A stretch of 64,000 nt of DNA from positions 62,001 through 126,000 of the forward strand of contig JAUXTT010000024.1 in the NCBI GenBank assembly GCA_030684395.1, read 5' to 3'. This document shows, piece by piece, positions 6,162 through 7,433 of this stretch. Source of the DNA: Bacteroidota bacterium. GTDB lineage: Bacteria > Bacteroidota > Bacteroidia > B-17B0 > Aurantibacillaceae. The position numbers and the translations under genes are program-made. Position 1 is the first letter of the stretch, and the number at the start of each line of letters is the position of its first letter. The notes under the pieces were generated by a model that was not told where the DNA came from, did no database searches, and saw only the letters and a program-made list of their open reading frames with translations.

Positions 6162-6204
6162 TAACCAAGTAAATTTAAAATTAAGTTTTAAATTTACTTG
6201 GTTA
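6162..6204. repeat. Palindrome, left copy of the pair bracketing the ATPase gene
   Basis: Two perfect 19-bp arms, taaccaagtaaatttaaaa (6162-6180) and its exact complement (6186-6204), around the 5-base loop ttaag. The same arms recur at 7391-7433. The left copy lies 24 bp after the carboxylase stop and 21 bp before the ATPase start. The stem is AT-rich and has no T tail of the usual kind. Confidence 0.9.
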
Positions 6205-6212
6205 AATTTTCG

Positions 6213-6220
6213 TATATTTG
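6213..6220 (+). promoter_or_regulatory. -7 box (TATATTTG) of the ATPase gene
   Basis: An exact TAnnTTTG match only 5 bp before the ATG at 6226, so the mRNA would be nearly leaderless. The -33 region would lie inside the left palindrome, so the palindrome could influence this promoter. Confidence 0.55.
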
Positions 6221-6225
6221 TTGAT

Positions 6226-7401
6226 ATGATAACTCGTTTTGCATTTAAAGCGATTCTACACCGATTACAAAAAACACCTGCTGTTGCTATATTGGGGCCA
6301 CGGCAAGTAGGGAAAACTACGTTAGCCAAATCGATATCGAAACAATTCAAAAAAGATGTGTTGTATTTTGATCTCGAAAATCCACGGCACGAAGCGGTGT
6401 TAATGACAGATGCTTATACTTTGCTGGAAGACAATAAAGAGAAATTGATCATCATTGATGAGATTCAAAGAAGACCAGAGTTGTTCACTTATTTACGCCC
6501 ACTAATTGATGATTATCGGAAAAACAGCCGGTTTTTACTTTTAGGTTCAGCTTCTCCACAATTGGTGAAAGGAGTTTCAGAAAGTCTAGCAGGAAGGATC
6601 CACTACGCTGATCTATCACCACTTTATTTAAATGAATTACCAAAAACTACCGCTCAGGATAAACTATGGTTTAGAGGCGGCTTTCCAAAGGCATTATTGG
6701 CAAAAAAAGATACAGACTATTGTGTGTGGATGGATGACTTCATTAAAACATATACGGAACGCGACCTTAATGATATATATGGAATTAATTTACCACGCAC
6801 TGTTGTGAGTTCATTTTGGAAAATGTTAGCTCATCATCATGGAGGTTTGTATAATGCAGAAATGTTTGGAAGATCTTTAGGAATTACCTCTCCTACTGTT
6901 ACAAAGTACCTGGATTACCTGGAAGGTGCATTTTTGGTAAGACGGCTGCCTTCCTACTTTGTAAATGCAAAAAAGCGTTTAATTAAAGCTCCAAAAATAT
7001 ATATTGCCGACAGTGGTATTTTACATCGATTAATAAATATAGATACTGTATCCGACCTCAAAACGAACCCAGTTGTAGGTGCTTCCTGGGAAGGGTTTGT
7101 AATTGAACAAATACGTTGCAATTTACCCCGCGGTTTTGAAATTTATTTTTACCGCACACAAAATGGCGCAGAGGCTGACCTGGTGATTACCAAAGCCCTT
7201 AAACCTGTTGCTTGTATAGAAATAAAATTGTCCAATACTCCAAAAATAAGTGATGGGTTTTATAATAGCATTATGGACCTGGAAACGACAACAAATTTTG
7301 TAATCACTCCCAGAGCAGATAACATCAAATTATCAAAAGGCTTAACGTTAACAAATTTAAGCCTGTTTTTATCAAAACACCAAAACGAAGTAACCAAGTA
7401 A
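6226..7401 (+). CDS. AAA ATPase with DUF4143 domain
   Basis: A 391-residue protein of the common prokaryotic AAA_14 plus DUF4143 family. Near the N-terminus is a Walker A (AILGPRQVGKTTL), then Walker B (KLIIIDEIQRRPEL) and a sensor stretch (RFLLLGSASP). A middle winged-helix region (LGITSPTVTKYLDYLEGAFL) is followed by the DUF4143 part with a nuclease-like core (YRTQNGAEADLVI, then ACIEIKLS), which resembles PD-(D/E)xK folds. Cellular function is not known for most members. The frame is open from 6076, but the earlier part overlaps the carboxylase and the palindrome; ATG 6226 gives the conserved start MITRFAFKAILHRLQ. The last codons and the stop lie inside the right palindrome (7391-7433), so gene and repeat are physically joined. 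Confidence 0.88.
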   Translation: MITRFAFKAILHRLQKTPAVAILGPRQVGKTTLAKSISKQFKKDVLYFDLENPRHEAVLMTDAYTLLEDNKEKLIIIDEIQRRPELFTYLRPLIDDYRKNSRFLLLGSASPQLVKGVSESLAGRIHYADLSPLYLNELPKTTAQDKLWFRGGFPKALLAKKDTDYCVWMDDFIKTYTERDLNDIYGINLPRTVVSSFWKMLAHHHGGLYNAEMFGRSLGITSPTVTKYLDYLEGAFLVRRLPSYFVNAKKRLIKAPKIYIADSGILHRLINIDTVSDLKTNPVVGASWEGFVIEQIRCNLPRGFEIYFYRTQNGAEADLVITKALKPVACIEIKLSNTPKISDGFYNSIMDLETTTNFVITPRADNIKLSKGLTLTNLSLFLSKHQNEVTK

Positions 7402-7433
7402 ATTTAAAATGCATTTTTAAATTTACTTGGTTA
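7391..7433. repeat. Palindrome, right copy of the pair bracketing the ATPase gene
   Basis: The same two 19-bp arms as at 6162-6204, here at 7391-7409 and 7415-7433, around the loop tgcat. It holds the stop codon of the ATPase (7399-7401) and, on the other strand, the stop codon of the phosphatase gene (7431-7433). It may serve as a two-way terminator, but the exact match to the upstream copy points to a repeat unit. Confidence 0.9.

Follow-up and report, generated by a model that had tools for sequence, protein, structure and literature searches.

The question raised by this locus is why a single ATPase gene should be enclosed by two nearly identical palindromes, and which protein might read them. 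The locus lies in the window (the whole stretch of DNA that was analysed, 64,000 nucleotides long), and its features are as follows.

6162–6204, no strand: left palindrome with perfect 19-bp arms, the putative operator of the ATPase gene
6164–6202: predicted recognition site within the left palindrome, of the form N-CC...GG-N, 39 bp, half-site ACCAAGTAAATTTAAA
6213–6220, plus strand: TATATTTG box, a probable promoter element directly inside the left palindrome
6226–7401, plus strand: ATPase of 391 aa with AAA_14, winged-helix and PD-(D/E)XK parts (DUF4143; PADLOC PDC-S01)
6295–6321, plus strand: Walker A, GPRQVGKTT, residues 24–32, from sequence and conservation
6793–7011, plus strand: winged-helix region, approximately residues 190–262, from weak profile and structure matches and from helices in the model
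7015–7398, plus strand: PD-(D/E)XK nuclease-like domain with E316, D318, E332 and K334 conserved
7159–7164, plus strand: codons of the address residues Q312 and N313, at a hairpin tip before E316
7391–7433, no strand: right palindrome, containing the ATPase stop codon (7399–7401) and the stop codon of the converging neighbour (7431–7433)
7393–7431: predicted recognition site within the right palindrome

The preliminary description had claimed two palindromes with the same 19-bp arms and different loops, a single AAA/DUF4143 ATPase gene filling the gap between them, a promoter lying against the left copy, and a stop codon inside the right copy. Its coordinates and its 5-base loops (TTAAG and TGCAT) proved exact, the gene was confirmed from the ATG at 6226 to the TAA at 7399–7401, and a -7-type box was found at 6213–6220. 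This TATATTTG box, which we take to be a putative Bacteroidota-type -7 promoter element, lies within the 21 bp that separate the end of the left palindrome from the ATG, and the predicted 39-bp site ends 23 bp upstream of the same ATG. At the other end, the right palindrome includes the final two codons of the ATPase (T and K) together with its stop codon, and its far edge makes the stop codon (7431–7433) of the converging minus-strand neighbour. Judged by eye, the neighbouring genes encode a carboxyltransferase on the left and a TPR/SpoIIE-type phosphatase on the right. When the isolated DNA strand is folded, each palindrome gives a hairpin near -16 kcal/mol, whereas its shuffles average -3.6 and -2.9 kcal/mol (z = -7.7 and -9.5 for the two palindromes), and the window is without a match in Rfam.

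A search of the 4.87-Mb genome with up to 3 mismatches allowed found the 19-bp arm in perfect form only at its four places in the window, and the other 8 matches carry 2 or 3 mismatches each, against 21 matches for a reversed-pattern control. A dispersed-repeat reading of the palindromes was therefore dropped because the arm is confined to the window locus, and the arm did not turn up widely between unrelated genes, an outcome that the preliminary description had named as fatal to its proposal. The protein itself matches 14 stretches of the genome, located in 13 genes, and the arms belonging to two of these paralogues likewise occur in perfect copies only at those paralogues' own ends. The suggestion that the 19-bp arm might mark other DUF4143 genes failed, as each of these genes has a sequence of its own and it is the layout that they have in common.

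The protein encoded between the palindromes belongs by profile to the DUF4143 ATPases (COG1373) and to the PDC-S01 group, defined by an AAA ATPase with a PD-(D/E)XK domain (DUF4143). Both AAA_14 and DUF4143 were found above their curated cut-offs, with PF13635 at 139.2 bits (cut-off 28.1) and PF13173 at 99.9 bits (cut-off 27), and the E-values were 1.3e-40 for DUF4143 and 8.1e-87 for PADLOC PDC-S01. The motif GPRQVGKTT is the Walker A motif. A structure model was obtained with a mean pLDDT of 94.5, in which residues 1–271 fold like the archaeal ATPases 2qen (Z 16.6) and 2fna (Z 16.3), which are STAND-like, and the match to these ends before the C-terminal nuclease domain. The ATPase fold also matches defence ATPases such as Avs5. 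A MarR-like winged-helix match covers residues 202–243 with an E-value of 0.0058, which is below the cut-off of Pfam, and PDB 2fbh matches residues 201–267 with an E-value of 0.013.

The C-terminal domain, modelled alone with a pLDDT of 93.8, resembles in fold Tk-TIP26 (Z 10.1), McrBC chain N (9.1), Can2 (8.6), VRR_NUC (7.9) and Hjc (7.1), with EcoRII, NgoMIV and FokI scoring lower; all of these are PD-(D/E)XK proteins. The E-values of Foldseek for this domain were weak (best 0.013). Among 56 sequences, E316 and K334 never vary, and at least 90% retain D318 and E332; both the fold and the D-(E/D)xK catalytic motif of the PD-(D/E)XK superfamily were found. The domain can thus be described as nuclease-like, with a putative DNA-cutting activity. 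In the model with a mean pLDDT of 94.5, residues 312 and 313 are placed at the tip of a β-hairpin (strands 304–311 and 316–323), directly before E316 and D318.

Palindromes are a recurrent property of the family. Many of the closer paralogues and orthologues carry a palindrome just before the start codon, with a sequence that differs from locus to locus, and some of them carry a near-identical second palindrome just after the stop codon. In Bacteroidota DUF4143 loci, palindromes with a score of at least 10 were found upstream in 60/128 and downstream in 27/128 (3 of 131 loci were left out for want of sufficient flank), against a background of ~1% of shuffles and ~1% of random windows. Matched pairs with a score of at least 15 occurred in 25/128 loci as compared with 4/600 cross-locus pairs, a count which missed L001 and L005 as pairs owing to start choice and a repeat insertion. 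With wider windows and a loose criterion, 29/131 Bacteroidota loci were paired, 46 had an upstream palindrome only and 56 had none; L053, where the pair is a repeat of another kind, is counted in both pair totals (25/128 and 29/131). No paired palindromes were seen in 89 other loci (those of other phyla, those of viral contigs and three more), and the right copy is hence a minority trait of Bacteroidota.

Among 169 close relatives (loci with at least 36% identity), the site consists of two inverted half-sites with the layout N-CC-N-(T/A)-G-N-(A/T), i.e., CCN(T/A)GN(A/T). A strict pair of such half-sites was found near the start in 76/169 loci, compared with 3/845 mononucleotide shuffles, and is absent in 93/169; a pair with one mismatch was present in 33 further loci (shuffles 79/845), and 60 loci had neither type. 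The span of the strict sites is 39 bp in 69 loci and 40 bp in 7, and apart from one locus each at 42 and 46 bp no other span was found within 31–49 bp. Since the span is constant while the centres are often imperfect, the sites fit double-stranded DNA bound by a symmetric protein rather than a hairpin, and a reading based on loop size or cruciform extrusion was dropped on the same grounds (a span fixed at 39–40 bp with imperfect centres). The commonest starting points of the family site are -38 and about -58 relative to the ATG, and in the window as in the family it lies over the gene's own promoter or start, as expected of an autorepressor.

Several further arrangements of the sites were observed. 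Upstream of L249, L251, L254, L255, L258 and L260, two or more sites stand in tandem at a distance of ~53 bp (five turns), and L255 has two downstream sites with the same ~53-bp spacing; such a distance points to cooperative binding along a single face of the helix. In many loci (for example, L049, L131 and L288), the site starts at -38 and the right arm therefore overlaps the start codon (CAAGGATG), where binding would cover the start of translation. In another branch of DUF4143 (L013, L014, L020, L035, L304 and L305), the inner part of the palindromes, a GGAAT core, is conserved and the outer parts vary, and the tip residues in L035, L304 and L305 are K-T. The loci L046, L047 and L048 are located on rhizobial plasmids typed as conjugative, where the ATPase gene lies near repC, VapC or Fic-type genes and a start-side site was found with no right copy. 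The protein was also matched by 10 records of a phage collection at 23–31% identity, and among 29 loci of viral contigs some carry a start-side site (L131–L133 and L136).

The variable positions of the half-sites are related to the protein sequence. In a column-by-column scan of the protein alignment against the half-site bases of 41 loci, the strongest partner of base 3 was residue 313, at z 12.2 as compared with 8.1 for the runner-up column, and that of base 6 was residue 312, at z 9.2 as compared with 5.5. For base 3, the resulting code assigns T to A, S, V or G at residue 313, G to H, A to N or Q, and C to D, with 0 contradictions in the discovery set of 41 loci. The code was then applied to loci that had not been used for finding it, where the dyad was picked without base 3; 104 loci without an inverted half-site pair were left out, and of the 40 loci with any dyad, 7 with arms disagreeing at base 3 and one with an uncoded T313 were set aside. 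Base 3 was correct in 31/31 scorable loci with a match of at least 10/15 (22 T, 7 A, 1 G and 1 C, so that 9 of the 31 have a base other than the commonest T), a set that includes near relatives such as L044/L045, and it was wrong in the thirty-second locus, L280, whose weak dyad falls below 10/15. Both arms obey the code in 72 of the 76 strict loci when T→A (2 loci) is counted, and one arm does so in the other 4. When strict and one-mismatch dyads are taken together, 95/107 obey the code, and 10 of the 12 failures belong to the one-mismatch set, a number near that which chance dyads would give. For base 6, H at residue 312 goes with A in 54/56 arms and A with C in 29/32, and the relation is loose for Q (T, A or C) and S (C or T).

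On a protein tree built without columns 312 and 313, base 3 changes at least 18 times. Among 10 independent pairs for N/Q with A, 9 favour the code and 0 speak against it (p 0.004), and all 8 pairs for A/G/S/V with T favour it (p 0.008); for H with G all 5 pairs are in favour (p 0.06) and for D with C the single pair is, which is too few, and the two such tests of residue 312 against base 6 were not significant. The association between residue 313 and base 3 is thus not due only to shared descent. For example, at one orthologous site, H313 goes with CCGTG in each of the four half-sites that make up the two dyads of two genomes (G014 and G007), and Q313 goes with CCATG in each of the five matched half-sites of a third (G062), the right copy included. 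Across many bacterial phyla, one residue predicts one base of the palindrome beside the gene. The winged helix had been expected to be the source of specificity, which was not borne out: the strongest covarying columns, 312 and 313, fall in the nuclease domain. Sharing of the same address by paralogues of one genome was found in 0/31 pairs against 1 expected (P 0.35), which is not significant.

Comparison with related genomes bears on whether the gene and its palindromes behave as a unit. A sister genome (G001) has no match to the ATPase and carries both neighbours of the window on one contig, separated by a gap of 332 bp in which no palindrome was found. By hand translation, the neighbour protein ends in ...DVCVVGIQIN in this genome and in ...DVCVIGVRI in the window, where the stop codon of the neighbour is the palindrome edge. 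An array of degenerate tandem repeats stands at this empty site (L276) in place of the unit. Of 19 relatives fetched, 2 were too short, and behind the carboxyltransferase of the 17 readable ones (the sister genome included, for which the right neighbour was also checked) neither the ATPase (0/17) nor a palindrome with a score of at least 14 (0/17) was present, the best having a score of 13 (L240). In no relative was the gene seen at this place without its palindromes, an arrangement that the preliminary description had singled out as counting against it.

Similar gains and losses were seen elsewhere. The unit of L005 separates two genes that are otherwise adjacent in its genus; among 20 genomes, the site is filled in 3 (G014, G007 and G062), is readable and empty in 11, which have neither the ATPase nor a strict dyad there, and could not be judged in 6. 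Units related to the L004 unit of G028 occur in G075 (L221) and G086 (L222): the DNA homology of the L004 unit with the former is 70% over 1435–2722 of the locus, from palindrome edge to palindrome edge, with flanks that show no homology by blastn or tblastx, and with the latter 68% over 1565–2723, with the left palindrome matching. A unit with sharp ends was thereby found at different places, as for a transposable element, although at two places only and in three congeners; a third place was rejected because the units of G075 and G086 share flanks. The place occupied in G028 is not empty in all members of the genus, as G093 has a related unit (L223, its protein 60% identical to that of L004) next to the sequence that flanks the G028 unit on the right. 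No consistent target-site duplication was detected among 21 units, whose abutting direct repeats of 0–6 nt have no common length. The Chlorobi-type loci L273 and L286, which share 98% identity up to the stop codon, where the homology ends, were considered as a case of recent movement and rejected; they represent one orthologous site, because the downstream flank in G328 is contiguous except for a gap of ~200 bp.

Empty sites and one unit at two places thus support, at the level of sequence comparison, that the gene and its palindromes are gained and lost as a block and that the block moves. The cause of the movement is another matter, because no consistent duplication was found and most relatives are without the right copy. 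The earlier reading of an exchangeable unit is in this sense upheld, with the corrections that the right copy is confined to a minority of Bacteroidota and that the left copy would also serve as a putative operator. In the L005 locus of G014, an inserted dispersed repeat of 177 bp (L005:2638-2814), of which G014 and G065 contain many copies that are ~90% identical, separates the stop codon from the right palindrome. The unit of L011 (G012:C1:80519-84658) precedes a multi-copy stretch that is 85–92% conserved across the genus and may be a ribosomal RNA operon.

The palindromes are very probably the ATPase's own recognition sites, the left one acting as an autoregulatory operator. The preliminary description had proposed, as one of its alternatives, that the ends are recognised by a protein; this part of it is sustained, and the protein concerned is very likely the ATPase, since a base of the palindrome can be predicted from one of the ATPase residues. 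A different protein co-evolving with the ATPase could in principle be the reader instead. Under the proposed explanation, the ATPase would bind the palindromes on double-stranded DNA as a symmetric oligomer, and the β-hairpin tip of its PD-(D/E)XK nuclease-like domain would read each half-site (CCNNGNAA), using residue 313 for base 3 and residue 312 for base 6, with the winged helix presumably helping. On the left copy, against the promoter, the bound ATPase would repress the gene that encodes it. The second cognate site that some Bacteroidota have after the stop codon would close the unit, and the palindrome–gene–palindrome block would be gained or lost as a whole; ATP-controlled nicking or cutting at the paired sites is a possible means of moving it. 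Fixed geometry, the code, paired sites, empty sites and conserved catalytic residues are all read directly from the sequences. Binding, repression and the geometry of the oligomer are what we infer, and a function of the right copy, which changes along with the protein, is best supported for some Bacteroidota. Taken as a whole, the explanation that the bracketed protein reads the palindromes as a DNA address, represses its own gene and is exchanged with them as one block is held with considerable confidence.

Readings in which the palindromes act as single-stranded hairpins account for fewer of these observations. As RNA hairpins, the palindromes would form an attenuator before the gene and a terminator after it; the stems are perfect, and both palindromes were among the 3 matches of a terminator scan for which 1.0 was expected, but the stems have only 3 G-C pairs, the T runs after them do not exceed 4, and the right copy was scored on the minus strand, i.e., for the neighbour and not for the ATPase gene. 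A span fixed at 39–40 bp, imperfect centres in other phyla, a base-by-residue code and the joint change of both copies also disagree with this reading, which is very improbable. Similarly, perfect hairpins at both ends would suit an insertion element of the IS200/IS605 or REP-like kind, the single strand of which is read by the product of a gene at another locus. However, neither the arm nor the hairpin was found dispersed in the genome; moreover, the dyads of other phyla are imperfect and of fixed span, and the covarying residues belong to the encoded protein, which together make an element of this kind the most improbable of the explanations considered.

Two further readings accept a protein bound to the sites and differ in its purpose. 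The ATPase could be a phage-defence nuclease (PDC-S01) that merely regulates itself, with the sites as operators and invading DNA as the true target, as suggested by the PADLOC match (E 8e-87), by the resemblance of its ATPase fold to defence ATPases such as Avs5, and by published passages that call PDC-S01 a highly abundant candidate (PMC12988326; PMC13356809). The inference of defence in the passages concerned derives from genome position, or guilt by embedding (PMC12988326), and this reading leaves the second copy behind the stop codon unexplained and fails to explain why the specificity loop of a nuclease domain should read the gene's own site; we consider it a serious possibility, though on balance not a probable one. 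Alternatively, the unit could be a minimal one-gene transposable element, in which the ATPase-nuclease pairs cognate palindromes, cuts and moves the block, and a private address prevents paralogues from moving one another. Cognate sites at both ends, homology from palindrome to palindrome between G028 and G075 with unrelated flanks, empty sites that lack the block and both palindromes, conserved catalytic residues and a palindrome that supplies the neighbour's stop codon all point to such an element, but most relatives have the start-side site alone, no consistent target-site duplication was found, recent multi-copy transposition is absent from the genome, only two places were shown, one of them shared by G075 and G086, and homologous exchange also yields presence and absence. 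Transposition by the ATPase is accordingly regarded as rather unlikely.

Related systems offer partial parallels. In the immunity regions of phages, a repressor reads its operator and represses its own gene, and its specificity diversifies together with the operator; the unit in the window differs in that an AAA ATPase with a nuclease domain has sites at both ends of its gene, with repression as a prediction. In the MmeI family of Type IIL restriction enzymes, covariation of residues and bases predicts specificity base by base, and this family-wide covariation, as in the DUF4143 ATPases, provides a precedent for the method (PMC4833311). The residues of the MmeI family are described there as lying in the target-recognition domain of a restriction-and-modification enzyme (PMC4833311), whereas those of the DUF4143 ATPases lie beside the active site of the nuclease domain, and the site is the gene's own border. 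PDC-S01 is described as a candidate defence gene, with validation pending for most PDCs (PMC12988326), and as the most frequent individual locus in rumen genomes (PMC13356809). The definition of PDC-S01 does not include bracketing by the gene's own sites, unlike the unit in the window; the excerpts of the open-licence literature on DUF4143, COG1373 and PDC-S01 describe no recognition site or code, and no open-licence literature pairing DUF4143 with palindromes was found.

A bolder and more doubtful proposal is that the DUF4143/PDC-S01 proteins are self-addressed one-gene mobile elements, in which an ATP-driven restriction-like nuclease recognises, represses and moves only the block that carries its own 39-bp address, this address being set by two hairpin residues and reprogrammable by their exchange. 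The finding offers a way to study a candidate phage-defence gene that is among the commonest of those still uncharacterised, as each member is given a predicted site, partly readable from two residues, by which binding, cutting, autoregulation and self-mobilisation become testable, and a genome sequence can be turned into a list of protein–site pairs. Should the nuclease prove to cut at its address, this would make the family a new ATP-dependent nuclease that can be reprogrammed.
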